From assembly GCA_030248295.1 (NCBI GenBank), contig JASANH010000499.1, positions 248,001 through 312,000 on the forward strand: a DNA stretch of 64,000 nucleotides, written 5' to 3'. The notes below the pieces were generated by a model. The model had not been told where the DNA came from. It worked only from the letters and a program-made list of their open reading frames with translations, and ran no database searches. The DNA is from Mesodorylaimus sp. YZB2_4 (lineage: Eukaryota; Nematoda; Enoplea; Dorylaimida; Dorylaimidae). Within the stretch, counting starts at the first letter, position 1, and every line of letters starts with the position of its first letter. Made by a program: the position numbers and the translations under genes. Positions 24,607-61,864 of this stretch are shown here, piece after piece.

Positions 24607-26257
24607 AATTGACTAAGCGATTGTGATTGAATACTTCTCAGTTTGACCTAACGAGGACATTTGATTTGTGTTCGATGAGTACTGGACTCTCTGGTCTCCT
24701 ACGTTTATTGCAGCTGTGGCAATGGTTTGGGTGGATGTCGACGTATACTTTTCTCTGATTGTTTGAGTTTGTGTATCAGTTGAATGAGACGACAATGACA
24801 CAGCGCTCTGCGCTTCGTCTGTACTTACAAGTAAACTATCAGTGGTTAATAAATCTCGTCCTGATCTTCGTTATTAATCAATGATATTATTGTTGCCTGA
24901 GTTCTTTGACTTTTCGCAGCACGCTTGAGAGCTCTTCCGCTGCAGGCTCAATTGAGTTGGTGCACAACAGCAGCATCGACGCAGAAGAACTAAAACCCGT
25001 TGTTGCGCCACTCGGAGTCATGTTTTTCGAGGTGGGTGTCGTAAGGATTTTAGAGGATGGCAACTTTGAGAGTGTGAGATGTGATTCTAGTGCTGTGGTA
25101 TTTCCTTGAGAAGCGGTCGTTTCACCTGTTAATGTCTCTTCCTCTGACGCGACATCAATCAGAGTGCTATCGGCTGCGGAGGACAGCTCCGACTCTCCAG
25201 GGAATGTCATCAAAGATGATGAATATGGAGATGCTGAAGTGGGTTCTGCAGATATTAGACTTGATTTAGGAGGGTAAGACTGAATTGTGGTTGGCAAATT
25301 ATTAGCTTGGATTGCTGATACTGAATGATCAGGATTACTTGATATGGTTAGAAATGTTGTCAGCTGAGTTCCAGAAGCGGTTTCGGCTTGTGAGCTGCTG
25401 ATTGCTGTGGAGGCAGTTAGTTGAACGATAAAATATGCTTGTTTTACTATCTGCCTGCTTGTGTATTGACAGAGCCGATATGAATTTAAAGACAGGAGGT
25501 GTTTCGAAAACATAGTGTGTTGTAGTGGCAGGGGTCAAGTGCTCAGACTCTTGTTGGCTAATAGTCACTACTGTGCTTTCACGTATGTCTTGATAAGTAC
25601 TCGGTATTACAGTAGTTTTCTCTATCGTGGAGGTGCTTGAGGGTAAAAGAAGCTTTGATGAGGGCGAAGCTGATACGATCAGTAACAGCGGTCTCAGCTG
25701 ATTGCGCGGCTGAGCCCAGCTGATCATATCTAACGAAAGTCGATGACGACACACTGGCGTTGTAGGCTAATTGCGTTGTAGCAGCATTGCAAGTGCACGA
25801 CGATAAGGAAGGATTACTGCGCTTTGCTCTCGATTTGCTTATTATTGATTGCATTTCGGTTTTATTCTGTGCTGTGCGGTTGATTTTTGGAAGATACAGA
25901 GCCATATGCGTTGACCAATCCGTCTACGCTAGGAAGTGAGGCCACTGCAGACCTTTTGTATGGATTCGTTTGCAAAATGTGACAGTTGGGAAGGGCAGGC
26001 AAGCTATCTTCAACTAAAAGCAGACTACTGTCAAAAGAGTGTTAAAAGCGCTTCAAGATGTTTCTTACTTTGATATTGGAAGTCGTCGATCTTTTTTGGT
26101 ATTCGATCACTAGCTCGCTCACAGAGAATAGGATAGCCACAGCGGATACAAGGATTATGAACCACCACAAAATTCGAGTTTTCAGGCCTCTATTAGTCAA
26201 AGCGAGTTTCATGCCACCAATAGATGATATGTCATCGGGATGTTCCCTCTGAATCAT
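24607..26257 (-). pseudogene. Copy A: decayed DEG/ENaC-mucin channel gene
   Basis: Exon 1 (26257-26069) is intact and encodes a short cytoplasmic N-terminus and TM1 (ILWWFIILVSAVAILFSVSE). Exon 2 starts at 26013 with LPFPTVTFCK and then shifts frame within the DEG/ENaC motif; the shifted frame reads TNPYKRSAVASLP. Further on, a third frame carries RAKRSNPSLSSCTC and STFVRY, homologous to copy C. The lectin-like domain is missing, and the frame passes directly into Ser/Thr-rich sequence containing PSTYQDIREST, which is also present in copy C. The mucin part is broken into several frames. Exons 4-13 (Cys-rich ectodomain, TM2) are absent; a LINE and tandem repeats occupy the position. Clearly non-functional as a channel. 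Confidence 0.85.
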
Positions 26258-27962
26258 CGCTCACTATATGATGTATGTAGCGAATGTAATGCGGGTCTAA
26301 GCCATAAAATTTGAGTTTTTAAAAATCCCACCTGCATTTTAGCATAAGGATATTAAACTTATTGCTAGCCCTCCAGCATACTGTATTGCGGCAGCCCACG
26401 AAGAAAGATTTTTCAGGCAGCTAAGGCCCCATCCGAATAACCTTCCTCACCTAGTCGTGTATCTTTCAAGACAAGGTATGGCGATCGGACATCTTCCCAT
26501 AGTAAAGCACTGCTTGTGAGCAGGAATCAAGAAGACATGTACGTTTCTTTCTCTGGTATACTCGTCTTCTATCTGCAAGGGTAGTGAGTATTGTACTGGC
26601 TGAAATCAATGAGTGACTTCTGACATTGATCGGCACTGGAACGGGGGCGTACTGAGCTGTAAAAATCGATTTATTTCGAGCAAATTCTTAACCCCTCGAG
26701 CTCTCTTGATTAAATTTTTATTTTTCGTGCACCCAACACCTTTGTGCACCGTCCTTCGCTCCCGCTACTGTAAGTTTTATCTAATTCGATTACTCACAAT
26801 AAGTTCTGAACTTCAAAAGCGCCTATTTTTAGATCTTACTGACAAAGCTTCTCGGTCTTTCAAGTCGGAACTCATTGTCAGCTTTGAACATAAGGTCCTA
26901 TATTGTATTGTCAGTTGTCGGCGATGATCTCTGGCTGATAACAATAGGCTCTGGCAGAAAAGGGCTCTTGGACTGACACAGGCGTACAATATGTCGAATT
27001 CCGAAAGCCCAAGAAAAGCTGAGTGATGACAAGATGGCATGGACTTGTAGTCTTTGCGGCATGTCGTAGAATACGCGATCGTTACGACGGGGCAAAGACT
27101 TGGTTTCTTCATGGCTTAACTCTGCGGCCTAGTTGATCGCTTGTTCTGGTAACTACCGTGAAACAAAACAGAGTGGATCTCACAAGGAATGCTTCCGGCA
27201 GTTAAGGTTTCCAAGGATCAAGACCTGGATAAAAATTTAAGCAGTGCCGAAGGGAAACGATGAAAAAATTCTGACGGCTGGACGAGGGCTGCCTAATTCG
27301 CTTGCGCAAACTTCTCTGCCAGCTAACAACATGTAATTTAGACAGCTCGTGTGGCAAAGCCTTCAGAGGGGCCCTGCTAGTGCCATTGCGCCATGATAAT
27401 AAATAGTGTATGTTTATCATGGGGCCATCAAAAAAACTGTTGCGTTATTGATTTTTCAAAAAAAATTCCGAGTGTTTGACATGATCCGATCCGATCCTAA
27501 TTTTTCCCGTCAGATCCGATCTGATCCGATAAACCCCAATTCGATCCGGGTGTGACCGCCGTCAAAAGTCACATGGTGGCACCATCTGTTGGACTCCTTT
27601 GCCAACAAGCATTAGGAAACCAAAACACAGCGCAGTAAAACAAAGGATTATGTTTGATGCCCGGCCATTGATCGCTCTCCTTACAGAGCATTCGATAAAT
27701 AAATAAATAAATAAAAATGGTGAGCTAATTTCAAAATATGCCACAAAAAATCTGCGCATGAAAGTTTACTTATAAACAGCACTCAGTGGTGAGAAAAAGT
27801 AGTGAAATCCAAAAAAGCAGCAAACATATTTTATCTTCAGTGCAATATATTCTGTGGATGGTTTTGCTGCATTTATTTCTCATGCTTCTACTGTAACTGA
27901 TACAAATGGTCGGTAAAATTTTCATTCGCTTCTCATGCTTCCTTCTAGTGATAAGAACACGC
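26258..27962. other. Intergenic between copies A and B
   Basis: No gene. The part at about 27340-27560 repeats the CCATGATAATAAATA ... GATCCGATCCGATCC unit seen at 8.0-8.2 and 19.1-19.3 kb. A short AAATAAATAAATA run is at about 27700. Confidence 0.45.
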
Positions 27963-30900
27963 TCAAGCAAAGGTGTTACTCATCAAAAACCCATGATTGA
28001 CCCCTTTGGGCTTCATATCAGCTGTATCGAATCGATGAAATGAACGCAATCTCTTTAATAATTGCTGAACAATATTGACGACTTCAAAGATGCTAAGGAC
28101 GGACATTCCAGAATATAATCCAACAACTGACGATATATCCCACAGAAGTTCAGATATCTGCAAAACATTTTTGCTTGCTTGGATTTTAACTCTGACAGAA
28201 AACTTTTTTCTGACCCCATATATAGGAGCTTCTTCATATTCCACTGTCATTAAATCATTATAAAATATATCAAGCTTTGACAGATGCCTCAACCTAAAAT
28301 GCAGTTTAGGTCAGCCAAGTTTTAAATTTCAAAGCGGGAGTAATCAGCACTTTTCTTTAAAAGCGAAGCCTGAACCATCCGTCGAGTAAACCTGTAAATA
28401 TTTGTCGTTACGCCCGCAAGAGGGGCTGGGAAAAAAGAAGAGTACCTGCTGACGGCGAGACCACTTTGTAATACTTAGGACCCCATCATGAATGCCGGTA
28501 CTGTAAGGAGAGGGAAAAGTATGGAGATGCCAAAAGACTTTAGAGTATGTAGCCTACTTGCATGCCATGGGGCAAGAGCAGCTCGTTTCATTCTTCTCAA
28601 CGGCGTAAAAATGGTTGACACAGTCACCTGAAAAAATTTTTTTGGGGAACTACTGTAGGGTAGCTGGAAAAAGTGTGCACTACGCTGTGTCAAGTCGCAA
28701 TATTTAAGTTTCGAATCTCGCGGCAAAGGAACGCGAGGATCTCCGCACTGGCACTTATCCATAATACTTTTTTGAAAGCAGCTTCTCAAACATGCCTGTA
28801 AAATAATATACTAGGTTATCCATGTATAATCGAGTTATTACCATCAAAACTTTTACTCAATGAGTTAACTACCCAAATTTTCAAGAACGCTTTTTCGAAA
28901 GAAAATGAATCTTGGCTTGAAAAAAAATTACCTCTGATGAATATGAAACGTTTTCGTAGTAAAAAACTGGCACCTCATCCACAATAGTCGCGCAAGGTTT
29001 CTCATCAGTTGCATAGCTGCTAACATGCTCCTTGATAGCAAAGCAGAAAAGAAGTTTTTTTTAAACCGGTGATGTGAGAAAAATCTCTCATACCATTCGC
29101 ATAGCATAGGTGCCTGTGAATCCGCTTGGGAAGCTAAATCCACTTGTATCGGGGAACACAACTTCGTTTGGCGCGTGTACCACAACCCGAATTCCCGAAG
29201 ATTGGACAAAGTCGAGGTACTCTTCTTGTCTCGGAGAGAACGTTATTGATAGTCCTACAATAAAAACTGACACTTTTAGTTAGGGAATAGGTTATTCAAT
29301 GATTTTGCGACGATACAGTCTCAGAAACGGTTTTGGTTGCATACTATGATTAAATTAACGCATGGTTTTTGATTTTTCACGATACACTAGATATGCTTCC
29401 TTGCACACACAAGTTGGCAATATAGTGGTGTGTTATGTGTCCCAAAGAAACAAGATTCAGATCACCTGATTCTAGCCAGCTAAAGGGCTCTCAGTAATTC
29501 GGCTCTCAGATATATTATCTCTATAACTTACCATATACAGCTCCAGCTCGATCAGCTTCCCTCTCATCGCCCATTGCATTGAATGTGTAGCAATTTCCAA
29601 AATTCGAGTCGATGCGCAGTGTGAATTGACTGAAATCAACTTTCCAATTAGATCATTCCAAACAAGCTTTCGTCAAGATTACCGAATCCTGTCAGCAATT
29701 ACCAATCGCCTTACCTATCCTCGCACTTCTCGCCATAATATGTGCAGCTGAGAACCAGCTCGGACAGAAGGTAACCAGCTTTCTCCACTAATTCCGTAGG
29801 CAATGAAGAGACCAAGTAAGCTAGGAGTTCTGAGCTTGCTGTGCTCAATGCAGTAGCGTCTGATGTGGCCTGAAACCTTAATTTCTCAATTTTTTCATTC
29901 CTTGCAATATGCAATTTCGTACGTTTTCCAGAATGGCCGTAATATATTGTTCTTTTTGGTCCGACACCTGAATTGACTCTAACATTTGAGTCGAGGCTGG
30001 GGCGAGGCTCGAACGATCTGCAAATTCTGATTGACGAGTAATTCCAGATGTGGATGTATGTTGTTCCGTTGCTGGGGGCTTGACTGGTTGACTTAAACCT
30101 TGCTTTTCTGTAGGAAACGGCAATGGGGATGTTTCTGCGTCTGCAGTAACTGAAGGCACTTCCTGGAACTTTTCAGTTTCTGAAGATTTATCCAATGCAT
30201 CATTATTTAGAGCCAGTGCCGTAAAACTTCGCTCCGTGACTCTGAGGCCTACTATTGTTTCAGAAAGTGGCGACATTAAAGATAATGGAAAAGAAAAAGG
30301 TGGCTGAACTTCGTCAGGCATCAAACTTTGTTCTTCAGTTATATCTGTCGTTGGGCTAGTGACAGAAAGAGTGTTATGGAATTTAGCTTGTTCATTCATA
30401 TCAGGTAATGCAGGCCATAATGCAGGCGCTTCAACTATCGCCTTTTCTGTTGTTAGGGGCCAGCCACTATTTGTTTTTGTTTCTGTTTCAAAAAAAGAAT
30501 CAATTTCTGTTGAGCTACCCTCTGCTGACAATGTAGGAACAGCATCTGTTATAAGTGGTCCACTCACAATCAGTGAAGTTGAGTCAAGGGTCGTTTCCAC
30601 AAGGACAGGGCCTTGTTCAGTCGTTGTCAACTGTGACCCACTGACAGCGACAACTGGCTCTTGGCTGTCCTCGAGGTCATTTCTGTCAATGTCTGCTGCG
30701 GAAGTTATCGGGACTGAGCTCATATTACTTAGTGAATTCATTTCCGATAATCCTGATATGGTGGTAAAGGGTGATTCTGAGGTTAGGTGCTGTGAGACAA
30801 GTGGTTCGATGCTTGATTCGCGTGGATTTCCCACAACTGTCCCTTCTTCAGTTGGAAGCGTAGAAGACTCGCCAGCACTTTTAAAAGGATGGTCTGGAAA

Positions 30901-33900
30901 TACCGCTGACGGGATTGAAGTCGATGATGTGAAGTCTTGCTCATCACTATGAAATTGTGGATCAAGTAATGACGAGCCTTGGATTGAAAAGGTGGTTGTT
31001 GCCGCTGGCTCTAAAACAGAGCTTCCAAAAAGTTGTGCTGCCGAACGGCTACTTGTTCTTAATTTTGTAATGGTTTTTGAGGTATAAAACTCGGCATTTG
31101 CTTGTGCTTTGACTGTAGCTTCAAGAGTATTAAGCAAGATGCTTGATGGGCTCACAGATACAAAGGTTTTAAGATTTAAAGAATATGTTGGGGTAATGTC
31201 ATCAGCAAACATCGCCATTTCTGTGGTCAGTTTTGCTAATGATGAGGAAGTGTGCTGCGAATCAGATATTGAGGACCTTTCTGTATTTCTCATCGTAAAT
31301 GCACTGCTGTGTGTCATCTGGAGTATAGAAGAGTAAGGAGTCACATGAGTGCTAATCGAAGAATCGAGTACGCTGCTCAATTGTGGCGCAGAACTGCCTG
31401 ATAGAAAAAGAGATGATGGCAATTGATTTGTGGAAGATGATTGCATTTCATTTGCGGCAACTTTGTCCAGAGTTGAAGCGACAGGTGTTGCTACAGGTGA
31501 GAGTGATGACATTTGGTTCTCTTGTTCTGTTGTTGTCTGCATCTGATTGTGAGTCATGTGAGGCGATAATAGCGAAATACTCTGCGCTCCAAAAGAGCTC
31601 ATTTCAGGATCACTGATAGTGGCTGTGGGAACTGTATCAACCATTGATGTGTGAATACCTGGCGTAGATGTTGTCTGGCTTACTGAAATTTGTGTTCCAA
31701 TTAGAGGAGCCTGTGTTTTAGTCCTTGTTGCAGTTGTGCAGGCCGAGGGAATGAATGTAGAAGAATCATAGCTTGTTGTCGTGAAACGTGAGGAGAAGCT
31801 GCTAAAGACATGCGTAGACAGAAAAATGGGCGTTAAAGTTTCTTGGTGTGATATGCGCTCCATATCTGACACAGTGGTGCGCGAAAGCGAGATGCTGTCA
31901 CCTAGTAATAGAGGTTCCACTGTTGTCACGCTAAGATGGGTGCTCCCTTCTACTGATTTCAGTGCGGTGGGGATTGATGTTGAAATGGTCGAAAGATCGA
32001 CTGTTTCAGGTGGATAAGTTGTTGTGGTCAGTTCGTCAGGTAAAGTTGATCTAGTTGATGAATCTAGGACATACGCGGATGTTGCTTGCGATCCACTATC
32101 TCTAGCGATATCATAATGACTCGATGTAATGATTTGGGCTAGTTCAAAAACAGAACTGCTTGGAGTCTGTAAGCTAAAGACTCCTGGATATGCAGATGAT
32201 TGTTTTGGGAAACTGGTTTTAGGAATCTTTCGCGTTCGGTGAGAAGTGGAGGAAGTCGAGATGACTTTGAAGGGAAAAGAGGGCTGCTTAAAGGTTGTCT
32301 TTGCTACAGTTGAAGCACTGGCCTCCTCGGCTGCTTGTGATGTTGTTGGCTGTGATTCCGTTGTTATCACTGGGTATGTCGCTAAAGTTGGCTGCGATGT
32401 CGACGTTGCTTCTAGGGTGGTTAGCTCTAATGACATTGGTACATGCGAGACCATATGGATTGTCTTTGAGGTCGATTTTGCTGGTGTTGACTGTGATGTC
32501 ACTGTTGTTGACTGTGATGTGACGGTTGCTGGCTCTGATGTCAATATTGTTGGCTGAAATGCCGATAGTTTTGACTGAGATGTGGAGGTAGTTGGCTCTA
32601 AAGTGGTTGTTGGTTTTGAGGTCGACTTTGTCGACAGTGGTGTGGAGGTTGTAAACTTCGATGTCCCCATTGTTGGTTGAGAGGTTGCAGTTGTTGACTG
32701 TGATGTGAAGGTTGTCGGCTTTGATGTCGCTGTTGTCAGCTGTGATGCCAGTTTTGTTGACTCTGATGGAGAGGTTGTCAGCATCGATGTAGCGTTTGTA
32801 AAGGAAGTTGGCTCTAATGTCGCCATTGTAAGCTGGGATGGCAATTTTGCTTGCCTCATTGTGGAGGTTATTGACTCTGATGTCGCTGTTGCTGGCTGTG
32901 ATGTCACATGTTTGGACTGTAATGTAGAGGTAGTTGGCTGCGAGGTCAGTATTGCTGGTTTTGAGGTCAATGTTATTGGCTGTGAGGTCGCTGCTATTGA
33001 CTGTGATGTGGAGGTTGTTGCCTTCATTGTCACTGTTGTCATTTGTAATGTCGCTTTTGTTAACTGTGATGTGGAGGTAGTTGGCTTCAAAGTCGATGTT
33101 GTTGGTTTTGAGGTCAATGTTGTTGGCTCTGATATCGACCTTGTTGACTGTGATGTGGAGGTTGTTTGCTTCGACGTGGCTGTTGCTGTCTGTGATGTGG
33201 ATTTTGTTGGCTGTGATGTGGAGAAAGGTGGCTTCAAAGTTGGGGCTGTTGGTTTTGAGGTTAAGGTTATTGGTGGGGAGGTCAACTTTGTTGACTGAGA
33301 TGTGGAGGTACTTGGCTTTAAAGTCGACGTTGTTGGTTTTGAGGTCAATGTTATTGGCTGGGAGGCTGCTCTTGTTGACTGTGATGTGGAGGTATTTGGC
33401 TTCGATGTTGCTGTTGCTGGCTGTGATGTCGTTTTTGTTGACTGTGATGTGGAGAAAGTTGGCTTCAAAGTTAAGGTTGTTGGTTTTGAGGTAAAGGTTA
33501 TTGGTTGGGAGGTCAACTTTGTTGACTGTGATGTAGAGGTACTTGGCTCCAAAGTCGGTGTTGTTGGTTTTGAGGTCAACGTTATTGGCTGTGATGTCGA
33601 CCTTGTTGACTGTGATGTGGAGGTAGTTGGCTTCGATGTCCCGGTTGTTGGCTGTGATGTCATTTTTGTTGACTGTGATGTGGCTGTAGTTGGCTTGGAT
33701 GTCACCATTGTTAGGTTTGTAGTCATTTTCGTTGACTGTGATGTTGAGGTTGTTGGCTTCGATGTCACTGTAGTTGGTTGGGAGGTCGACTTTGTTAATG
33801 GTGATGTGGCTGTAGTTGGCTTCGGTGTCACCATTGTTAGGTTTGTAGTTATTTTCGTTAACTGTGATGTGGAGGTTGTTGGCTTCGATGTTGTTGTTGT

Positions 33901-36900
33901 TGGCTGTGATGTTGTTCTTGAAGACTGTGATGTGAAGGTGGTTGGCTTCAGTGTCGCTGTAGTTGGTTGGGAGGTCGACTTTGTAGGCAGTGATGTGGCT
34001 GTTGTTGGCTTTGTAGTCATTCTCGTTGACTGTGATGTGGAGGTTGTTGGCTTCGATGTTGCTGTTGTTGGCTGTGACGTCGTTTTTGTTGGCTGTGATG
34101 TCGCTGTTGTCGGCTTCGATGTCACGGTTGTGGGTTGGGAGGTCGACTTAGTTGGTGTTGATGTGGCTGTTGTTGGTTCTCTTGTTGCTGTTGTCAACTG
34201 TGATGTTGCTTTTTTTGAGTGTGCTGTGGAGGTCAGCTTCGATGTTGCTGTTGTTGGTTGGGAGATCAATATTGATGGTGTCGATGTGGCTGATGTTGGA
34301 CTCAATGTCACAGTTGTTGGTTTTGTTGTTGCTGTTGTTAGCCGTGATGCTGCTTTTGTTGAGTGTGCTGTGGTGGCAGTCGGCTTTGATGTGACTGTTG
34401 TTGGCTGTAATATCGTTTTCGTTGACTGGGATGTGTAGGTGGTTGGCTTCGATGTCGCTGTAGTTGGTTGGGAGATCAATTTCGATGGTGTCGATGTGGC
34501 TGTTGCTGGACTCGATTTCACAGTTGCTGGTTTTGTTGTTGCCGTTGTCAGCTGTGATGCTGCTTTTGTTGAGTATGCTGTGGAGGTGGTTGGCTTCGAT
34601 GTCGCTGTAGTTGGTTGGGGGGGTGATTTTGATGGTGTTAATGTAGCTGTTGTTGGCTGTGATGTCGATACCATTGGCTGTGATGTGGAAGTTGTCGGCT
34701 TTGATATCGCCATTGTTTGTAGGGGTGTCGCTATTGTTGACTGTGATGTGGAGGTTGTTGGCTCTGAGGTGGACATTGTTGGCTGTGATGTGGAAGTTGT
34801 TGACTCCGATGTCGACTGTGTCACTGCTGAGGTGATTGTCGTCGAATGTGAGACTGAAGATGTTGCATGGTTTGTTGTTTGGAGGGACGTTTCAGAACTA
34901 TTGGTCGCGCTCGAATAGCTTATTGCAGATAAACTTGTCGCAAACGATGTCAGAGAAAATGTGCTCACAGTTGTTTGGAAGGAGTTTGGGAAACAAGCGG
35001 AGGTAAATTGCAGAAGGGTTAAAGATGATGTTGAATTCGTCAGTTGTGTGATCGATGTTGTTGCCACTGATGTTATTTGTGTGATATTCGAAGCTTCTAA
35101 AAATGGGGAATTGGGCATTTGTGGTACATGACATAGGTTAAAAAATGTATTCAAACAATTTCATCCAAGTATTGGTTCAGGTTTCTCATGTTCCAGCTTT
35201 TGTAAGAAGTCGACTTAATCAGCTATAAACTTTCAGAAGCAAATTTGGATGAGTCATATAAAAACCTAGAATAAGCACAGCTTGTGCACTATGTATGGTG
35301 GCTCTGCATAGCATCTCTACAGGTCCCTACGCCTTTTTATGTTTTTTATTATGAAATTGTGTAATATTTATTGGGTGATGGCTTTGTGATGAGTTTGAAA
35401 CATCCATTGCTTGTACTTCTAACCCCAAACCTTCCACAGTTCAAGAGTGACTTTGCCAATTTTTCACAGTTTTATCATCGATTCGCGAATACGAATACAA
35501 TCGCTTTTTTTAATAGCCCATTCGAAAGAGCTATTTAGTGCGTAAAATATCTCTATGCACATTGTGAAGTCTTAAGAGGCTGTGTCAGAATCATGTGTCG
35601 AAACTGGTATCACTCCCTACTGGGGGAACATTGAACTTGTCTGAAAGTATGAGAATCATTCATGGTACTTCGATAAGTGTGACAGCAACCTCGACATTTG
35701 CTAAGCATATAAAAAGCAAATGATTTACAGCCTAAAGAGATCAGCCGTCCATTATGTGGGATGTCAGATACTCCATCAACTTATCTAAGCCCTCGTGCAG
35801 TTGCCGCAAAGCCGATTTCATACAGCAATTGCAAAGCCGCTCACTGTATGAAGAGAATATAAAATTTTAATGCTCATCGGAATAGGTAAACTTGTGCAGG
35901 TGTATACTAACTTGTACATCATATCACATAAAAATTACATGCTGAATAAAATTGTCTTAGTCGAGATAACAAAGAATTACGAAAAGTAGATATTGCAACA
36001 TTTAGAGTAGCTGTATATACTGTACAGCGTCTGAAATCCTTAATGCTGCAGTCTTATGACACCATGTACAAATTCTTGCAACAAAAGCGATATCTGGCAA
36101 CATCTCAGGTTTTACAGTACACTGTATATCACCAAAAGATTCCTTTGGTTCTCGAGCAAGAGCTTTTTATAGAAAGGATTGGGTTTTGACTTTACCCAGT
36201 CGATACTACTGCTCAATGACAGCTCGAAAGTGACATGAGAGCACTGCTGCAAGTAGTGGAAAGGCCATCATCCAGGAAGTTTCTTATCGTCAGTAAACTC
36301 CTTAGAAAACCTTAATTTGAAGACTCGTCAGGCTACGTAAAGCATTTGTCATGATTGCTGAGATTGAAGAAGAAAGAGTTGGACGAAGCGAATTCCCTAT
36401 AATGAAATAAGAAGCAAAGCTCGGGTGCATCATGCCACATAAGCAAACAATCCCAAAGTGGCATAAAACTCGTTTTAATTAAAGGAGCTGGCATAATTTG
36501 AGTAGTCTCATTCGATTCCCCGCCTAAAATAGGGTAGGACTGATTGCTAAACAAGCGATCATAATCTTGCAGGGGTCGGCTGGTAAGATGATAAAAAGTC
36601 AGCTCGTCGAAAGGAATATTTGAATGAAAATTTAACCATCCTTTACTCAAACGGCCATTGTAGTCGACTAATGCAGTTGAAACCTAAATCGAAGGTTGTC
36701 CAATGTTTAAAAGAAGATACTGTTTTGAATGGGCTAATCAAAAGAGCGCTTGCAGAACTTTTGTTTTTGCGAGTCGACAAGAAATCTTTCAAAAACTTTC
36801 CAAAGTTGCCGAAGTCTTTTTCAATGCAGCAGCCCTGTCTCGACGTTGCTAGGCACAAACTGAAGAATATTATTTTTGCTCGATCGATCGTTTATCTGGC

Positions 36901-48800: not shown

Positions 48801-51800
48801 TTTTGGCCAGGGCCTTGAATTATGTTAGTAGTTGGGTTGGTGTTCGCGTCAAGAGTAAAAGTTGATGGAGAGGAAGATATTTCCTGTAGAGTCTTCTGTG
48901 CAGGCTCAGTTCCATTCGCACAGGTCGTGGGCACTGATGTTGAAGATCCAAACTCTGTTGTCTTTTCACTGATAAAAGTGATATTCGACAAATTCGTGGA
49001 GTGAATCTGAGGCGATGAAGTCGCTGAAAATGTCGTGAATTTTTCTTCAGCTTCTGTGGTCTGTTTTAGTATAGCGCTCTCAATTGTTGATGCAGGTGCT
49101 ATTATCACTTCTTCAGTCAGTGAGCTATCGCTTGCGATGGATGGTGCGGATGAACTGGATAATGAAGTCACTATTGGTTCTAAACCTTGTGGGTCAGTTG
49201 AGGATATCATGGTGGTTTGAGAGGCAAGCACAGATGATGAACTAGGGTGGGAGAGTGTTGGGCTTTGAGAACCGCTTGCTTGGTCAAGTAGAAAAGACAT
49301 TTCTGGAGGACTTGATAAAGCAAAAGAGGTTATATGGTGAGAGGTGCTCCGAGACTGTGAGCTGCTTATTTCTGAGCTGGGAGCTGGCTGCGAACTAGTA
49401 GGAGTAACTGTTTTGTGCGCAATGAATGGCGTCGATAGGTACTGAGAAGCAGGAGATGTTGCAGTAACACTGCTTGCTGCACTGGCAGAGCCTAATTCTT
49501 GCTGGCCAAGAGTTACTATGGTGCTTTCACGAATGTCTTGATAGGTACTTGGATTTAGGGCAGTTTCCTGTGCTGCAGAGGAAATCAAGGGAGAAACATG
49601 CGTCGATGAAGCAAAGCTATTGCGGCTAGTCGTAATGCTAGTCATGGTTTTTGCGGTCACAACATGCGGTGAAGTTGATGTGCTCAAGGAAGTACCTTCA
49701 TTTGAAGTCGCATCTGTTTCGAAAAAATATGCTGAGGTGGAAAGATGGTGTGAAGAAACTAGTGATGGTGTGACTTCAGCTTCAGAGGTCATCGCTGTAA
49801 CTGTACTATCCGTAGCTAAGGATGGAATTGAAATAGTAATGCTCGGTTTAAAAGTAGAAAAGAAAGTTTCTGTAGTTGATGAGTGGGTATTTGCTCCTAC
49901 TGACGAGCTTGAAATGACTGGCGCTGAATTGAAAATGCTTTGAGGTGTCAGTGAATCACTTTCGCCTGCTGTAGGACTACTGATGACATAGAAGTCGTTG
50001 GAGCTAATGCTTGCAGCTTTTGTAGTTGTTGTCTTTGTTAAGTCACTTATGACAGACGCCGTTGTCACTGGCGGAAATAGGGTGATGGTTGCTGGCGGAT
50101 GAGGTTCAACAGTTGTTGTCGTCACAGTTGAATAACTTCCCACCATTGAAACAAAAACATCAGAGGCAGTCGAGGTTGAGGAATCTGATTGAGAAATGGC
50201 AATGCTCGGAAAAGATGTCACGTAGGGTTGGGCTAATGGACCAACTTGAGCTGTGGATATCGCTTTTGAGGGGCTGATGTATGTTGGCGACTGAGAAATC
50301 AAGTTCGCTGAAGGTGAAGTCACTACTGTTGACTGAGAGGTCGAGGCTGTTAAAGGTGCCGTCATGGCTGCTGGAGGGGAGATCGATGGGGAGGTCAAGG
50401 TTGTTGAAATTGATGTCAAGGTTCTTGTCGATGAGCCCAGCGTTGTTGAAGGTGGGGTTGATGCTAAAGACTGAACAGCCAAGCTTGCTGAAAGTGTCAA
50501 AGGTGAGGTCAGTGATGTCGACTGGGAGGTCAGGGTTTGTAAAGGTGACATTGCGGATGCTGGTGATGACTTCGAGGATGTTGAAAGTGAGTTTGTAGTT
50601 GATGATTGGACAGTTAAGGTTTTTGAAGTCGCGGTCGACTGAGAATTTGCTGAGAGTGAGGTCAAGATTGTTGAAGCTGATGTCATGGTTGTAGAAGGTG
50701 AGGCCATAATTGTCGATGGCAAGGTCATAGTTGGTGAAGGTGATATCGAAGTTGAGAACTGAACAGTCAAGCTTGCTGTTGGTGCAGACGACTTGGAGGT
50801 GGTCGAGCTTGTTGAAAGTGAGGTCATGGCTGCAGAAGGTGAGGCCATAATTGTTGAAGGTGATGTCGAAGTTGAGGACTGAGCATTCAAGCTTGCTGTT
50901 GGTGTAGTCGGCTGGGAGGTCAAGCTTGTTGAAAATGAGGTCAAGTTCACTGAAAGTGAGGTCATGGCTGTTGAAGGTAAGGTCATGGCTGCAGAAGGTG
51001 AGGACATAATTGTTGAAGGTGATGTCGAAGTTGAGGAGTGAGCAGTCAAGCTTGCTGATGATGTAGTCGACTGAGAGGTTAATCTCGTTGGAAGTAAGGT
51101 CAAGTTTAATGAAAGTGAGGTCACGGTTGTAGAAGGTGAGCTGATGGTTGTTGAAGGCGAGTCCATGATTGTTGATGGTGGGGTCACGATTGTTGATGGT
51201 GAGTCCATGATTGTTGATGGTGGGGTCACGATTGTTGATGGTGAGGTCATGGTTGTTGAAGGTGATGTCATAGTTGTAGAAGGTGAGGTCATGGTTGTAA
51301 AAGGTGAGGCCATGATTGTTTGTGGTGAGGTTATGGTAGTTGCTGGTGAGGTCATGGTTGTTAAAGGTGATGTCGAAGTTAAGGAGTGAGCAGTCAAGCT
51401 TGCTGATGATGTAGTCGACTGAGAGGTTAATCTCGTTGGAAGTAAGGTCAAGTTTATTGAAAGTGAGGTCATGGTTGTAGAAGGTGAGCTGATGGTTGTT
51501 GAAGGTGAGTCCATGATTGTTGATGGTGGGGTCACGATTGTTGATTGGGAGATCATGGTTGTTGGAGGTCAGGCCATAATTGTCGATGGTGAGATCAATT
51601 TTGGTGAAGATGATGTTGAAGTCAATGGCTGAGCAGCCAGGCTCGCTGTTGGTGTAGTCGACTGGGAGGTCGAGCTCGTTAAATTTGAGGTCAAATTCAT
51701 GGAAAAGGAGGTCATAGTTGTTGAAGGTGAAGCCATGAATGTTGAAGCTGTGGTCACAGTTGTTGAAGTTGAGGCCATGATTGTTGAAGGTGAGGTCAAG

Positions 51801-53291
51801 TTTTTCAGAGTTGAAATTACGGTTGAGGGTGTTGAAGGCGAACTCGAAATTGAGGACTGAGAATTCAAGTCTGCCGCAGAGTGAGAGATGAAGTTTGTTG
51901 ATGGTGAGACCAATGATGTCGACTGGGAGTTGAAGGCTGAAAGAGGTGTTGTGACTCCTGGTGAAGGTGAGACTATGGCCGTCAAAGTTGAGGTTGCGAT
52001 TGCCATTTTTGGGGTTAACGATGTTGATTTTGAGGTTGTAGATGTTAATCTTGATGTTGAAGTTGTTAATTTTGTTGTCGTAGTTGTTAATTTTGATGTT
52101 GAGGTTGAAGATGTTAATCTTGATGTTGAAGTTGTTAATTTTGTTGTCGTAGTTGTTAATTTTGATGTTGAGGTTGAAGATGTTAATCTTGATGTTGAAG
52201 TTGTTAATTTTGTTGTCGTAGTTGTTAATTTTGATGTTGATGTTGTTAAAATGGGAATATCTGAAAACTCAAAAATGTTCTACATACACTGCACAAAAAT
52301 TTTTGTGTATTTCCTCCTGGCTCAGTTATTTGACTAGCTAATTAAAAAAACTCGATTAGATAATGATTTAGATAAAAGCATGCATCACACACTCACATTC
52401 GCAAATAGTTCCATCAGGCAAGCTTTTATCATTCCAGTTTGTAAAATGAACATTAGTGCTGTTAAAAGCGATCGCCACCGCTCCAGCGACATTCCAAGGA
52501 CTCCCTCCACCATATCGCGAGGCTAAACATTTTGTGCATATTCCTTGAACATTTACTGGGCCCCCTGATCGAGTTGTCGAATCTTCATGCCAATAAAAAC
52601 CGTTGGAATCGCCTGCCATTCCAATCCACATGTCATTGCTATTAATAAGCTTCTTAGCCACAAGCATGTCGGCGACGCCTTGACTGTCGATTCTGGCTAA
52701 GCGACTTTTCATTCCAGCAGGCGCTGCTTTGGCGCAGCAGGTGAAACAGCATGCCCAGCCGCAACCCAGAGATTTTTCATACCTGACGAAAGTCGACGGC
52801 GACACACTGGGGTTATAAGCTGTAATGTTAGCTGCGGGCTTGCATGAACATGATGATAAAGGAGGATTACTGCGCTTCTCTCTTGGTTTGGTGATTTCAT
52901 TTGTTGGTTGTGTTATATTCTGGGCAGGCGGCCGATTTCTGGAAGCCATAGTGTTGTACGCGTTGACTAATCGTCCCACGCCAGGTAGGGAGGTCAAAGC
53001 AGACTTTTTGTATGGATTCATATTGCAAAACGTGACTGCTGGGAATGGCAAGCGACTTGCTTTCAGCTAAAAAAGCGAATTATCTTGTTAATTTTGAATA
53101 TAACATCGCAAAATGATCCTCACTTTGACAATTGAAGTGGTATCTTTTTTGTTATATTCTATCACTAGCTCGCTGATTGAAATTATTATGACCATGGCGG
53201 ATACGGCGGTGATAACACACCATAAAATACGACTTTTAACGCTGTGATGAGCCATGCCAAATTTCAGAGCATCAGTGGGTGATGGTCCCAT
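45887..53291 (-). CDS. Copy C: DEG/ENaC channel with C-type-lectin-like and mucin domains, 13 exons, one in-frame stop
   Basis: Exons: 53291-53124, 53066-52397, 52260-47630, 47573-47419, 47358-47261, 47129-46969, 46905-46807, 46706-46595, 46535-46466, 46403-46349, 46298-46246, 46190-46112 and 46054-45887; phases all close, 2,172 codons. In order: TM1 (about 21-46), LPFPAVTFCNMNPYKKS, REKR (118-121), the Cys cluster CGWACCFTCC, a C-type-lectin-like domain (177-279), a Ser/Thr/Pro region of 1,544 codons, SCTYHGVKC, YGNCYTFN, GLSITLSPKQNEYLDF, ACLRSCYQKS with KCQCGDP, CFCPVAC, then TM2 (DISSVIGLYSGMSVLSIFEM). Exons 4-10 and 12 have exactly the same lengths as in copy B. Codon 510 is TGA (51571-51569) within the mucin exon; the frame is otherwise open on both sides. 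It could be a nonsense allele, a sequencing error, a readthrough site or early pseudogenisation. Confidence 0.82.
50300..51990 (-). repeat. Short-period mucin repeats of copy C
   Basis: Units like TMTSPST and TIVTPPSTIMDSP recur with a 21-bp base period and higher-order blocks; for example the block beginning at 51550 repeats near 51170. The repeat unit differs from that of copy B although the heptad length is the same, so the arrays have been replaced or homogenised independently. Confidence 0.75.
51569..51571 (-). other. In-frame TGA in copy C mucin exon
   Basis: The codon sits between GCC and CCT in a repeat where sister units have TCA, so a single C-to-G change explains it. The downstream base is C (TGA-C), a context known to be leaky in animals. 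Nothing nearby suggests an intron. Confidence 0.85.
52041..52247 (-). repeat. 69-bp (23-residue) tandem repeat, 3 copies
   Basis: Units start at 52041, 52110 and 52179 and are practically identical. They encode a Thr/Ser/Leu/Lys-rich sequence at the very start of the mucin exon. The high identity implies recent expansion and probable length polymorphism. Confidence 0.9.
52397..52706 (-). other. C-type-lectin-like domain of copy C
   Basis: Residues 177-279 show the fold's landmarks in order: SRLARIDSQ (the LA-I-S strand), MWIGM (the WIG motif), FYWHEDST, then VAIAF, NWNDKSLPDGTICE ending in the canonical ICE. The Cys cluster just before it (CGWACCFTCC) probably provides the N-terminal disulfide partners. 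The Cys usually found between WND and ICE is missing, and no EPN/QPD sugar-binding triplet is visible, so carbohydrate binding is uncertain. The exon ends exactly after ICE. Confidence 0.75.
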
Positions 53292-54584: not shown

Positions 54585-54685
54585 GGCTGATCGGTTCGGT
54601 TTTCGGGTTAACGGAACCAAACCGAAAGAGGTGGAACCGAACTTTTGGTTCGGTGCACCGAATCGAAATTGTTTCGGTTGCATGG
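54585..54685. repeat. GGTTCGG-rich degenerate repeat
   Basis: About 100 bp contain repeated GGTTCGG and its complement in both orientations, allowing multiple alternative hairpins. No coding meaning is apparent. Confidence 0.5.
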
Positions 54686-54974
54686 CGGACGGCAAGCCTG
54701 TCACTATTGCAACTTGTCGGACAAGAGTATTTTTATTGGTTTACTAGTGATCGGTTGCACCACTTGTTAGGAGAAGCAGGTTACTTGTCAGAACGTTAAA
54801 AAATTTCGACAACCCTCAATCAGCCTTGTCAGAGCATAGAATACTCGCTCACTCGCTTGTAAAATCGCCTGACCACGTTTTCTTTAAAAAAATGATGCAA
54901 TTATCATAAGTAGTTGTAGCGGAAGCCATGATGATTACGAAGATATAATTACTGTTTGCATAAAAAAGATTACC

Positions 54975-56219: not shown

Positions 56220-56400
56220 GTGAATCACCCACCAAGTCTGTGTGCAAGACGCAGAAAGTACTTCAGCAAGTTCTCAGACGGCCAGAGTTGAACTCAGGGC
56301 CGACGTGTTTTCAGCCTTGCCAAGCAAACTGTGACGCACGCCTTTCACCGCTACACCACCCAGACGGCTCCGAGCATATGTTACAAAGGAGTACAGTAGA
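56220..56400 (-). repeat. tRNA-derived SINE-like element
   Basis: On the minus strand, the A box TGGTGTAGCGG (56358-56348) and B box GAGTTCAACTC (56295-56285) are spaced 52 bp apart, as in a tRNA-type pol III promoter. The region is GC-richer than its surroundings and directly replaces the 3' part of channel pseudogene D. Confidence 0.55.
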
Positions 56401-56441
56401 GTAAAAAGTATTTATCCCAGATTTAAATCGCCATATTTTAC

Positions 56442-59400
56442 CTCTTTGAAAATAGGAAATATTCAGGTAGTCGAAGAATTGTACTTGATTTCCAGCAGTA
56501 GCGCATGGTTCTGCGCTCGTTGCTAGACTATTCACGTTTGTCTGAGGAAATAATAAGATACCATAAAGTCTGTGTTTTTTAAAGCACCGATTCATTACCA
56601 GTTGCATAGCATAGGTGGCTTCAAATCCATCAGGCAAGCTGCATGCGGCTGTGTCAGGAAATGCGGCGTCGTCCTGGTCATGAGCAACTACTCGAATGCC
56701 AGCGGATTGAATAAAGTCGAGATGTTGCTCTTGTTTTGGGGTAAGTGTTACCGATAGTCCTGAGTTGAAAAAAAAGATGCGGGTGAATAGTTTTCTTTTA
56801 AATTTGTCATTTTCGTTGAATTTTCGAGTATCCCTGGCCTTTCAAGTATTTATCGCCTTAAATTTGCATGGTAGATGCAACAGTCCATGGCTGTGAACAA
56901 AAAATAGGATAGAATGGTGCTTTTTCTATTCAACGAGTACAGTAACTGTTACCACCATTTGTAATCACATGGCGCACGGATAACTAAGCTGGATGCGCGA
57001 AGAAACGAGCACAGCGAGACCAACCAGGGGCACATAGATCAACCCCACTCACCAAATTCTGGTCCTGCTCGATTTGCTGTCATTTTATCGCCCCGCGCAT
57101 TAAACGTGTAGCAGTTTCCATAATTTGGATCCATGTGCAATGTGATTTTACTGGAAGCGAAACCTAGTATACTGTATCATGTCAAAAGACTGAATTATTG
57201 GCAGGTCTTTCACACCGCAAACTATACATGTGTAAATTTCCATGGCTAAAATTTGGAAGTGGATTATCTGATACATTTCGGTTCCAGAGAGACGTTTTAA
57301 GTATGTCCCTATTAGGCGCGCAGGTTCTACAGTAAGTACACGCATGTACGCGACAAAATGGCCATATATCTTTACCTTTTTATCTAATTCTAGGAGCCAT
57401 AAGTATACAGCAGATGCACATAGGAAGAGAAAAAAGTTAGAGATCAAAAAACCCTTTACAACCCGCATAAAAAATTTCCGTTGTCATCTTGATGATCCAG
57501 CCTGGTGAAATAATAGCTTCAAATTTTGAAAGACTCTGGTGCGCAAATTGGCTAATATCGGTCAATAGTTCCTGTCTTTTTAACAGTTATCATACGTTTT
57601 CCCTTCTTCGGTGCTGCTCAAAAATATGTTTGGGCACTGCGATTAGTGATATTAGTATTATGGTCGAGGGTACTTCATAGGCGCCATGTAACATTTGTAC
57701 ATCAAACTATCCGCATGTACGCCCACTGGCCTTTATTTAAAATGGCGGGATATTCAAAACTTGTATTTTGACTTTTAGACATGTACAGTATTCACCATGA
57801 TTAGCTTCTCCTCAAGTCGAATTAAATTGATAGTATAGTTCTTGCATTCTTTCAGCCCTCGCATGTCTTACCTTTCCGTGCAGGGTTCGCCATGATAAGT
57901 GCAGCTTATGATTAACTCAGAGAGAGAAGATAGCCAGCTTTTTCCGCAATTGCTGACGGTATTGACGCCACTATGTATGCCACCATATCCTCGCCTACTG
58001 TGCTAATCGCTGTCGCATGTGATATAGCCTATTAAAAAAATGGGCATTGTCGTCATTGTAGAAGTCTACTGTGAGAGTACTCACATCCTGTAGAGCTTCT
58101 GAAATCAACTGTTTTACTGACATTTTTTACAATTCTTGCGCTTGAACTGATCCAGGGAATGCTGAAGTTTTCGCTGACAATGTGGTTATGAATGAAGCAG
58201 TTGACTTTAGTGTCATTGGGAATGCGAGCATAGATGCAGATGTTTGTAATTCCAATTGTGATTTGAATAGCAGAGTTGAATTTCGCCAAGCATGTGGTCG
58301 CTCTTTCGTTATCTACTTTGAGTATAGTTGACCCAAAAGTGACTTCTCGGGTTTTCAGGCGTACTGTAAGGGGTGTAGTGTTTACCCTTCCATCTAGTTC
58401 TAGCAAGTCAATGCCGGTTACCGGTTATCAAGGTACGATGCCAGCAGCATGCCAGGTCGTCCGATCAAAGTACAGTCGAAGGCTCGAAGACCAGTCCTTG
58501 TGATATACGGGTGATCTGTGACATATGCGAAGTGATCCACTGGGGAGGTATACAAGGGGGATGTCTGCCTTGTTCTGGGTGAGTGTGTGCCGTGTCTCCG
58601 TCGGGTGCGTGGTTCAGTAAACTTAGTGATTACACTACCGCCCTCATGAATTCCTTTGATACCTGATGAATCTCTTTTGCAGATGTTTCAAACATGACAA
58701 GGACGGGTACTGGGGTGCTACTGCTGAAGGGGGTGCGGAGATTAGGGGGTAAAGGAAAGACAGGCTGTGTGACATAAGGTGAACGATTTATTCTGATTGG
58801 CTGTGGGTAGCTTGTTCATATGCTGACGTGGTGTCTGACAATGTGAGACTGGTGTAATCTATATCTGATTAGTGGCAGCCGCGTTTGTAAGCAGACTCTG
58901 TGTGTCCGCATCTATAACATGTCCAATACGAGTTTGTGTTTCCGTTATTGCTTCTGCCGGCTTAGCTAATTAAGTGTGTGCCAGCTCTGTTTCTCTTGTT
59001 GTCATTGTCTCGACTGTCCCAGTAACAATAGATGCATGGAAGCCAGGCCTCGCTGTTTTTCCCACCCCTTTGCTAATACCAGGCTGATTAGATGATTGCT
59101 GTGAATAAATGGGCAAGCTGTTAGTGCTGAAGGCATGATTTTTTACATTGCCGGATAATTTGACGTCGACACTTAATTTTGCCTTGATTGTAGAAGCAAA
59201 ATTAACTAGGCTAAACTTTTTATTAGGTGGCCTAGTCGTTCCACTAGAAGCAGAATCCTTCAAAGAAGAGGTTTGAAAAAAAGCGGATGCAGGCGAAGGA
59301 GTTGCCGAAATCATGGAGGGAGTTTTTGGCCCAAAGGAAGATGTCATAAGGGTTAAAGGTTTAGAGGAAGGTGCAGATGTTACATGCATATTTTCTTGGG

Positions 59401-61864
59401 TGGCTGACAAAAGAAGCGCCGTTGTAGAGTGCATAAAAGTATCTATCACGTCTGTACTGGTTTCGCGTGGCTCGGTTGTTTCGCGGGTCTGAAAAAACCA
59501 CTTGTAGTTGTTGTGCCATCTTACTTGTCTCAAGTTGGGGGGAGCAAATATGAGAATAAATCGCTGGTTCCTAGATGTGTGTCTGGAGTATCTGTCCATA
59601 TAGGCCCTGTTGTTGATGCCTCAGATTGTAAAGTTACGCTGTCGAATGAGGATGGTTCTTGTTGCAAGTCGGACATTGTTCCGCTTTCAGTTGTTTCTGG
59701 AGCACTGGTAATCAGATTCAGCGGTTTCGAAAATTCAGGGGCCATGCTCGTTTGTGCATTGGTCATGATTTCTGATGTGAGGGGCGATGCATTTGAGGGT
59801 AGCATAGTAGTTGTTGAAGAGTGATGATGAAAAGAATTAGTCAATGTCTGTTGAGTGGAAGGTATGTTGGTCATTGGAGGCGTGCCAGATGTGGAAAGAA
59901 CTTCTTGTTGGGTAGCAGAGAATTTTGTGGCGGCTGTCGTCAGAGATGGTTTAGATGTCCCTTGGGAGACAGAAATCGCCTCTTCAGTTTCAAGTGGTGC
60001 CGTGTAAGTGCCAAATGCGGTTGGTGTTGGACTTTGATAAATGGCGAAATCTTCTAATGTGTGTTGGAGGGCTCTCCCAGTGTTGGCTAGGGTGTTTCCA
60101 AGAGAGTACCGTGTTTTTGTGTCGCTGGATCCCCAGCTCGCCGTTTCTAACTCCGCCGAAGTGCTCAGTTGCCATATGGGAATTTCAGAAGTGGGTGCGA
60201 CGATGGTTTCTGTTTCCCTTGCCATCATTAGATTACTGTAGCTACTTGATAGGAATGCGAGAGACGAGGTATCAGAAGTGCTTGATGCTGGCTGAACTGC
60301 AGCGCTGATCGATGTCGGGTGTTGTGCGCTATTTGTTATCGATTCCTGCGTCGCTGTAGTTAGAAGTGGCCACGCTGTAAAATGGTGATCCATCTTTTAG
60401 AATCACGTGCGTGGCGGCTTGCGTCGTTTGAGCAAGTCTGCTGGTTGAAGGGGCCTTCCATGTAGTTTCTACTGTAGTGGTGCGTATGAAGTGTCTTGAA
60501 GGCATGATACTAGAATCTGAGGTCAAGTGTGTCAGCAGTGTGCTGCTGATGGTTGAAGTGTCTGTGGCTAGGTCTGCGTCCATCAAGGAAGAAATGTCAG
60601 TGATAATCATAGGATTTTTGCTTTTCGAAGCACGAGTAGCTTTGGCTTTAGAAGTGGTGCTTAAGGGTCTTGTGAGTGAGCTCGTCGACATCAAAACTGT
60701 GGCTGTTTCAACGCTATCCTTGCTGATCGATGATACCTCTGTGCTGTACATAACTGTCGAGCTTGACGTTGCTGCTAGGGGCTCTGTCGCGGTTACCGAA
60801 ATTGGCATTGCCGATATTTCAGGAGTAACTGACGCCCTAGTTGTGGTGGGAATCGGGTCGCCATTTGTATGCGTCGTTTCAGTAAATCCACCTCCAGTAC
60901 GTAGTGAGGTAGCTGATGGCGCTGTTGGTCTTTTGATGTGTTTTGAGATTCCGGGTTTGTGGGAGCATGAACTAGAGTGGATGGATTAGCTGAAGTCCAC
61001 GCACTCACGTGTAGCTGATTGATGGATGCAGTCTTGATTATATGGGTTAGAGGGTTGCTGCCGGATAGCTGTTTTGAAGTTGTGCATTGCGTGCATATCT
61101 CTGTGACATTGACTGGGCCGCTGGACTTGGTAGTTGAATCATCGTTCCAAGAATACTTGCTACTACCGCCCGCCATTCCAATCCACATGTCGTTTGCATC
61201 AATAAGCTTCTTGGCCAAAAGCAAATCGACGATGGCCTGACTGTCGATCCTGGCCAAACGACTTTTCGTTCCAGCGGGAGCGATATTGGCGCAGCAGGTA
61301 TAACAACATGCCCAGCTGCAACCTAGTGACGAGTCATATCTGACGAATGTTGACGGCGATACGCTGCTGTTGTAGGATGTTTTAGACGAGGCTGATTTGC
61401 AACTACACGAAGACATTGGAAGACGCTGCGTTTTTCTCATGTTGGGTGGTGGCTCTGGCTCCCTGTTTGCAGAAGACGCTTGATAATTCGAATTGGTCAA
61501 ATTATTGTAGACTTTGATCGATTCAGAAACACCAGGTAGCAATGCCAAAGCAGGCTTTCTGTAGGGATTCATTTTGCAGAATGTTTTTGCTGGGAATGGC
61601 AAGCCATTAGGTTTTAGCTGAAAACAAATCTACTGTCGGTATGACTTATTTTCATCACTGCTGCTTACTCTGATAATCGAAGTAGTCAATTCTCATGTTA
61701 TATTTCGTCACCAACAGGCCCACAGAGCATACAGTATCATTGCTATTGTTGACACTGCAGCAACGAACCACCACCAAAGCCGAGTTTTTGGCGTTTTTCG
61801 AGATCAAAGCGAGCTTCAGGGCATCAATGGACGATGTGTACGCTGGATGGTTACTTTGAATCAT
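56442..61864 (-). pseudogene. Copy D: decayed DEG/ENaC-lectin-mucin channel gene
   Basis: Exon 1 (61864-61670) starts MIQSNHP like copy A but shifts frame before TM1 and then has two stops. Exon 2 (61618 to about 61009) is open and keeps LPFPAKTFCKMNPYRK, CSWACCYTCC and a lectin-like SRLARIDSQ...MWIGM segment, which is truncated: the WND-ICE end is gone and a fused intron remnant GTGAGTGCG...TTCAG of 19 nt follows. The RxKR site is degraded to KTQR. The mucin region (about 60990-58100) lies in at least three frames. Exon 4 (58028-57872) has 2 extra bases and exon 7 (56541-56442) has 1; exons 5 (57150-57053) and 6 (56759-56599) keep the B/C lengths. Exons 8-13 with TM2 are missing. Non-functional as a channel. 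Confidence 0.87.

Follow-up and report, generated by a model that had tools for sequence, protein, structure and literature searches.

In human gamma-ENaC, furin cuts at RKRR138 and prostasin after RKRK181, and the protease-activation sites of ENaC have been described as a vertebrate development (PMC8791634); ASIC is described as having no GRIP domain (PMC7413742). The degenerins have variable fingertip blocks without a counterpart in ASIC1, that of UNC-8 being 209 residues long (PMC2943245), and EGAS stands for an EGF plus ASC domain channel (PMC10424705). Extracellular tethers have been proposed for DEG/ENaC channels and their nature called little known (PMC7958617, PMC10148893); N-glycans have been put forward for the role in a text that describes knowledge of tethers as scarce (PMC7958617). 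Here we describe DEG/ENaC genes in a stretch of 64,000 nucleotides from the nematode Mesodorylaimus sp. YZB2_4 (contig JASANH010000499.1; G000:C51:248001-312000 in our numbering), called the window throughout, together with their relatives in the same genome. An earlier note on the window, made from its letters, had reported four minus-strand copies, with a lectin-like domain and a giant Ser/Thr/Pro region set into the channel.

The outer part of these channels is usually a lectin-like module followed by a long mucin-like stalk, and a furin-type site commonly precedes it. The reading that we prefer, to which we give a little less than even credence on the sequences at hand, is that of a self-tethered sensor channel, in which a lectin-tipped mucin stalk, freed by furin, would stand on the finger of the channel.

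A family of DEG/ENaC genes with an enlarged outer part

Genome-wide searches covered the 145 Mb assembly (1,067 contigs) of this one genome. The copies in the window, A to D, were recognised by minus-strand translation and comparison of open reading frames (ORFs), then by a search with the exons of copy C. We compared 21 loci, namely B, C and 19 others, for which 20 regions and four small completions were fetched. L033 is counted as two loci (L033a and L033b); copies A and D, and the window flanks (L037 and L038), lie outside this set. With exon 2 of copy C as the query, the whole genome gave at least 64 matches, representing at least 50 places. The post-transmembrane part was present at at least 47 places, the C-type lectin-like domain (CTLD) part at at least 39, and both at at least 36; these counts take in the window copies and pseudogenes, and they are lower bounds because the search scores only the best candidates. 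A degenerate FPxxTxCN pattern, which picks up DEG/ENaC genes generally and not the head-bearing family alone, found 74 sites genome-wide and none in a reversed control. The same exon order recurs over the compared loci, single exons being absent in several: first transmembrane segment (TM1), the exon of the post-TM1 PFP motif (PFP), CTLD, mucin, then the channel exons from E4 to the second transmembrane segment (TM2). The sequences support a large family of DEG/ENaC genes whose outer part is usually built in this way. Further DEG/ENaC-like genes (L001-L003), with ORFs of 454-496 codons and mostly a single exon, are without the lectin-mucin head.

Copy C, assembled without most of its mucin, matched PF00858 at E 4.5e-62 (211 bits), and the paralogue L040, with mucin included, matched in three stretches at 4e-59 (201 bits; cut-off 23.6 for both). 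The L040 model has 1,092 residues and starts after the initial codons ahead of TM1. The best solved relatives of the channel parts of copy C were ENaC gamma (5.6e-37), ENaC alpha (2.1e-31) and ASIC1 (5.9e-30). The parts of the family are TM1, the post-TM1 FPAVTFCNMNPYKKS, a Cys-rich ectodomain and TM2 with a G-x-S filter; the FPxxTxC motif and the ectodomain lie between two membrane helices, which were assigned from sequence and alignment. The filter reads G-x-S in 18 of 19 TM2 rows (G-M-S in B and C) and N-A-S in L033a. By this sequence evidence the genes encode DEG/ENaC subunits, and trimeric cation channel activity is predicted.

Splice junctions were assigned with a model trained on 124 junctions of the conserved channel exons. 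Phase is constant at E4/E5 and E5/E6 (21/21 each), E6/E7 (20/20), E8/E9 (17/17) and E11/TM2 (19/19), and the same in 16 of 18 loci at E7/E8. For the head, a TM1/PFP junction was found in 11 of the 12 loci tried, every one in phase 0; CTLD/mucin is in phase 1 in 15 of 16 loci, the exception being L039, and mucin/E4 is in phase 0 in 20 of 21, the exception being L031 (19 of 20 without L036, whose CTLD exon was itself the tested ORF). The test is partly circular, for the script considers no donor-acceptor pair that would shift the frame of either conserved core; constant phase is therefore weaker evidence than it appears, and mainly mirrors a constant position of the acceptor (E4, PFP) or the donor (CTLD).

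Other features bear on the same question. The best-scoring mucin/E4 intron has 53-92 bases in 13 of the 21 loci and 206-748 bases in the rest; for L029 a 57-base intron ranks second. The ends of the mucin exons, compared by eye at the top-ranked junction, are alike in B, C, L024-L028, L030, L033a, L035 and L040 (YITAILEN, YMTTVLEN, ATVEEIQKALAE, YIMAVLQN, YISEALKN, AIARTITETLDDPS, AVAKTITETLDDPT, AIETILEQ, AIYDTLFDPN, AIESALSK), while the mucins themselves do not resemble each other; such an end was not seen at the top-ranked junction in the remaining ten of the 21 loci. PFP motif and mucin share one ORF of 1,665-1,868 codons in L021, L022 and L023, and the mucin ORF of L024 contains a second CTLD, after which a short phase-1 intron is predicted. 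The script's models are free of stops over the exons found in 20 of 21 loci, including C by way of an alternative acceptor past its TGA and L033a with a missing junction. Thirteen loci (12 not counting C) gave models that span TM1 to TM2 with no stop and no missing junction; these are approximate, in that E10 was not used, E7 is missing in L032 and E9 in L039 and L035, and for L029 the E7/E8 join is doubtful and the mucin/E4 intron used is one of 345 bases rather than the 57-base one.

These data support one protein made from head and channel exons. Separate transcripts for exons 1-3 and exons 4-13 are unlikely because the junctions are in frame, the mucin-exon ends are alike and ORFs are shared. 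If TM1-lectin-mucin and Cys-rich ectodomain-TM2 were nonetheless separate transcripts or neighbouring genes, this would suit introns that reach 3.2 kb (TM1/PFP in copy B) and the eight of 21 loci whose best mucin/E4 intron exceeds 200 bases. It would not suit the short in-frame introns of the 13 others, the alike mucin-exon ends or the identical exon order across loci, and neither half by itself would be a DEG/ENaC subunit; we give such a split almost no credence.

Furin-type site, mucin and lectin-like module

Furin-type site. In 16 of 20 loci the segment from NPYKKS to the head contains a strict R-x-K/R-R site, with 0.43 expected when the residues of each segment are shuffled (L036, which has no PFP exon in its stretch, was left out). 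The loci without it have RKTR (L026), LRKR (L034), KRRR (L040) or no clear site (L033b). Outside the compared set, copy A has RAKR and copy D no strict site. In the alignment the head insertion falls between residues 111 and 237 of human gamma-ENaC, a range that includes the furin site at 138 and the prostasin site at 181. A second furin-type site, considered for the end of the mucin, was rejected: beyond the head site there is no R-x-K/R-R in the mucin-bearing ORFs of the 21 loci, and other proteases are possible. Cleavage at the conserved site by a proprotein convertase is predicted.

Mucin and selection. A Ser/Thr/Pro-rich ORF of 1,100-1,939 codons is present in 16 of 21 loci; two have 561-644 codons and three a short one (in L021-L024 and some others the length counts PFP or CTLD codons). 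Ser plus Thr make up 30-54% in the 18 loci whose ORF has at least 561 codons, with 42% in B and 40% in C, and the mucin ORFs of the window contain period-21 (21-base) repeats. At L033 two members lie in tandem, their mucin ORFs 258 and 219 codons long; the second has a stop in TM1 and no lectin module that we could find. Pairwise omega in five pairs was 0.12-0.23 for the CTLD and 0.10-0.16 for E4-E8, values by which the lectin-like module and the pore are under constraint. Mucin omega was restricted to the three close pairs (0.71, 0.52 and 0.60), the two distant mucin pairs being too diverged for a reading.

One may ask whether all the genes in the window are in decay and their giant heads no more than degenerate, functionless sequence. 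A and D are indeed broken and C has a stop, but mucin-bearing ORFs of 1,100-1,939 codons are open in 15 loci besides C, mucin omega is below one in all three close pairs, and the furin-type site is conserved, so that decay is a very improbable account of the heads. The head could also be mainly glycocalyx, either shed after furin and a later cut or kept as a surface coat, with the channel part reduced to an anchor or a trafficking role. The place of the furin-type site immediately ahead of the head would fit, as would the mucin-like composition and the fast evolution of the mucin; on the other side stand the lack of a second site of this type (again, other proteases are possible) and purifying selection on the pore exons as strong as on the lectin. 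We regard this as unlikely.

Lectin-like module. Seventeen modules align, with a W, a CC, a C and a further C invariant; two modules are present in L024 and in L035, and WND is found only in copy C. A profile of the 17 sequences gave ten hits in PDB up to E 10, the top eight of which are C-type lectin-like chains: CLEC2D (0.0022), CLEC1B (0.022), CD23 (0.036), KLRB1A (0.11 and 0.19), CLEC2A (0.11), echicetin (0.15) and 1wk1 (0.66), the last two of which we take to be CTLDs. The ninth and tenth were phospholipase C (1.4). Used alone, the module of copy C had CLEC2D as its best hit (E 0.68), and that of L039 had plant seed lectins (E 0.29). A divergent CTLD fold is likely from these comparisons, and the lectin reading is supported, not proven. 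None of the genome's Lectin_C matches listed (at least 90) is one of these modules. Large canonical Lectin_C clusters lie at C21:899552-951506, C441:11732-48960 and C206:11344-17976, on contigs that a DEG/ENaC exon also hit weakly; we had considered that they may represent a second channel family, but FPxxTxCN has no site on these contigs.

Synonymous divergence (dS) differs among the parts of the same genes. For the close pairs L027/L028, L029/L030 and L031/L032, in this order, it is 0.504, 2.133 and 0.453 in the CTLD, 0.233, 0.356 and 0.281 in the mucin, 0.184, 0.158 and 0.071 in the PFP segment, and 0.210, 0.015 and 0.525 in E4-E8. L029 and L030 are neighbouring genes on C290, nearly identical in E4-E8 and far diverged in their lectin modules, a pattern that homogenised pores or swapped lectin modules would give. 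The CTLD excess fits gene conversion of gene parts or exchange of lectin modules. A set of chemosensory or immune receptors, in which ligands, soluble or microbial, would bind to the diverse lectin-like modules and the pore would be gated allosterically without force, would account for at least 36 places with PFP and CTLD in one genome (pseudogenes included) and for a CTLD dS above that of PFP and mucin in 3/3 close pairs, most strongly in L029/L030 (2.13 versus 0.015 in E4-E8). Allostery, on the other hand, would have to act through a stalk of over 1,000 residues, a poor link from the binding module to the pore; L021-L023 and B have a mucin and no lectin that we could find, and in L031/L032 the dS of E4-E8 is the greater (0.525 versus 0.453). 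Receptors of this kind seem to us somewhat unlikely.

A self-tethered sensor channel as the preferred reading

In the self-tethered channel that we prefer, a proprotein convertase would cut the furin-type site in the secretory pathway, after which TM1 and its segment would remain attached via the palm. This single cut would release the lectin end and leave the mucin on the finger, making the lectin module the free tip of a long O-glycosylated stalk that stands on the finger. The tip would bind matrix, cuticle, mucus, a microbe or a host surface, or the stalk would take drag; either way the finger would be pulled and the pore gated, by a self-contained extracellular tether. Cleavage, O-glycosylation, tether function and ligand are all inferred here. 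An extended mucin measures about 0.25 nm per residue, and the rod, if extended, may be as long as several hundred nanometres. The heads are diverse and duplicated and the pores conserved, which suggests that the surface recognised differs from gene to gene.

The pore has an unusual residue of its own. In copy C the residue before the D of DISSVIGLYSGMS, which we take to be the Deg position, aligns with Ala in both the FMRFamide-gated channel 7yvb and Pickpocket 26, and with Gly in ASIC2. Trp stands there in 13 of the 19 TM2 rows, Tyr in one, Ser in four and Ala in one; a small residue, usual in DEG/ENaC though not defining, is thus not found in most members. MEC-4 with A713V at the Deg position is constitutively open, Gly and Ser being reported as without effect (PMC2943245). 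The bulky Trp suggests a channel biased toward opening that the head would hold or release.

A number of observations weigh against the self-tethered channel or against steps leading to it. For the channel itself, DEG/ENaC proteins have an N-terminal HG gating motif, and none was seen ahead of TM1 in the twelve TM1 exons examined; an upstream exon, as yet unfound, possibly holds it, and the Pfam match does not depend on HG. In five of 19 rows the residue at the Deg position is not bulky, being Ser or Ala, and one model shows no steric clash for Val at this position (PMC2943245). For the single protein, mucin/E4 is not in phase 0 in L031 and CTLD/mucin not in phase 1 in L039, L033b has a stop in TM1 and no TM1/PFP junction, L033a has no E7/E8 junction, and copy C is interrupted by the in-frame stop in its mucin exon. 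For the stalk, L036, L033a and L033b have a short mucin or none. For the cut, the strict site is absent in four of 20 loci, three of which have other basic runs, and the 20 loci are related and not 20 independent cases; ENaC activation requires two cuts (PMC8791634), while one conserved site is found here. For the tip, no CTLD was found in B, L021-L023 and L033b, and only the top profile hit in PDB falls under E 0.01. Pfam Lectin_C (PF00059) was found in none of the ten modules tested at E up to 10, and the EPN/QPD motif in none of the 17, so that classical sugar binding is unlikely. The two domain matches that the earlier note had proposed looking for were therefore divided, PF00858 being found and PF00059 not, and its lectin-like domain keeps the backing of the profile for the fold while lacking the Pfam match and the sugar-binding motif.

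A stronger version is doubtful, if conceivable. The family would have made its own gating tether, turning a furin-cut loop into a lectin-tipped mucin rod on a pore with a permanently bulky Deg residue; ENaC-like processing would have evolved independently to arm surface-specific force sensors, the tips of which diversified over some 40 loci. With a subunit that combines the binding module, the stalk and the pore in a single chain, the tether question could be tested directly; the furin-type site would be a candidate for convertase processing outside ENaC. The family also shows to what extent the finger region of a DEG/ENaC channel can be lengthened.

The copies in the window and comparison with known channels

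Features of the four copies and of the TM2 relic are given in Table 1. All four copies exist on the minus strand as reported, two of them intact enough to be followed from TM1 to TM2 and two broken. Copy C has every part that the earlier note described and reads in a single frame of 2,149 codons, interrupted by one stop that may stem from a genuine null allele or from an error in the assembly; the acceptor of its exon 3 was picked by eye, and the splice script picked a different one. Copy B is open, and a lectin module was not found in it. In the tree, B groups with C, L025 and L026 in a clade of support 100/99, and as these three carry the lectin module, B has probably lost it. In copy D the frame of TM1 is broken, the CTLD is truncated and a frameshift splits E4; the search with copy C exons found no E8-TM2 at E below 0.05. 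No ectodomain exon was found for copy A, and the TM2 relic is probably its displaced 3′ end. We read A and D as pseudogenes. What the note had said of TM2 in B and C, of the giant Ser/Thr/Pro region, and of the place of lectin-like module and mucin between post-TM1 motif and conserved ectodomain is borne out, the last in other loci too. It mentioned neither the TGA of copy C, nor the furin-type site, nor the size of the family, nor the Trp or Tyr that 14 of 19 rows are now seen to have at the Deg position.

Table 1. Positions in the window of the four copies, their parts and the TM2 relic
Feature	Positions	Strand	Description
Copy C, whole	53291-45887	-	Twelve exons, eleven GT-AG introns
Copy C, exon 1	53124..53291	-	Short cytosolic N-terminus and TM1
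Copy C, exon 2	52397..53066	-	PFPAVTFCNMNPYKKS motif, furin-type site REKR, lectin-like module with terminal ICE
Copy C, lectin-like module	52398..52871	-	CTLD-like
Copy C, exon 3	47630..52260	-	Mucin, about 1,543 codons, one in-frame TGA
Copy C, in-frame TGA	51569..51571	-	In mucin exon
Copy C, exons 4-11	46112..47573	-	Cys-rich DEG/ENaC ectodomain
Copy C, exons 4-7	47573-47419, 47358-47261, 47129-46969, 46905-46807	-	
Copy C, exons 8-11	46706-46595, 46535-46466, 46403-46365, 46190-46112	-	
Copy C, exon 12	45887..46054	-	TM2, Trp at Deg position, G-M-S filter; stop codon included
Copy B, whole	40525-27963	-	Open across all exons found
Copy B, exon 1	40352..40525	-	TM1
Copy B, exon 2	36974..37183	-	Open frame holding the exon; PFP motif and RKKR, without lectin module
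Copy B, mucin ORF	29923..35160	-	1,746 codons, no stop; first base of the exon not fixed
Copy B, E4 to TM2	27963..29869	-	Open
Copy D, read as pseudogene	56452..61850	-	Broken TM1, PFP and truncated CTLD, mucin, E4 (split)-E7
Copy A, read as pseudogene	24607..26260	-	TM1, frameshifted PFP exon with RAKR and CTLD start, mucin remnant
TM2 exon relic	22199..22287	-	Probably displaced 3′ end of copy A

Next to the point where copy A is truncated lies an ORF resembling reverse transcriptase (23666-24421), which has no Pfam match and, as we take it, looks like the last part of a LINE reverse transcriptase; a 31-base tandem repeat is at 24395-24480. Elsewhere in the window are a minus-strand ORF for a reduced folate carrier (3493-4629; PF01770, E 3.1e-95), minus-strand ankyrin-repeat ORFs (11420-12303), which presumably resemble a glutaminase tail, and on the plus strand a fragment of a gag-type aspartyl protease (21179-21640) with a weak match to PF13975 (E 5.2e-5, below cut-off). 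A zinc-knuckle-like stretch, seen by eye, lies upstream of this fragment, and we read the two as a retroelement remnant. In the genome as a whole, the cuticle collagen domain Col_cuticle_N has 133 matches (none in 14 control genomes), in keeping with a nematode; the SL1 22-mer has no match, weak evidence against a chromadorean, and Chitin_bind_4 has no match, as in the control genomes.

Our search of open-licence papers found no lectin-bearing DEG/ENaC. The profile of the modules here matches known CTLDs (CLEC2D, CLEC1B, CD23 and C. elegans 1wk1) across the middle of the domain, and the terminal ICE presumably resembles the ends of CTLDs; compared with typical CTLDs, these modules are below Lectin_C detection, lack EPN/QPD and reside in a channel. 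EGAS-1 to EGAS-4 of C. elegans are likewise nematode DEG/ENaC channels with an added extracellular module. Theirs is EGF, whereas the Pfam results for assembled C and L040 include no EGF family and the addition here is lectin-like module plus mucin. At the Deg position the degenerins MEC-4 and UNC-8, also nematode DEG/ENaC channels, have Ala, Gly or Ser and most members here Trp; the insert of copy C is about eight times the UNC-8 block and includes a furin-type site and the lectin-like module. ENaC alpha and gamma belong to the same family and are the nearest matches in PDB. The GRIP region of gamma-ENaC likewise has a furin-type site after the post-TM1 segment and before the first conserved Cys of the ectodomain; activation there takes two cuts (PMC8791634), and one conserved site is found here. 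We do not claim shared descent of the sites. In gamma-ENaC this stretch has about 125 residues (111 to 237); in the genes described here the conserved site is followed by a lectin-like module and then by a mucin, the ORF of which reaches 1,900 codons.

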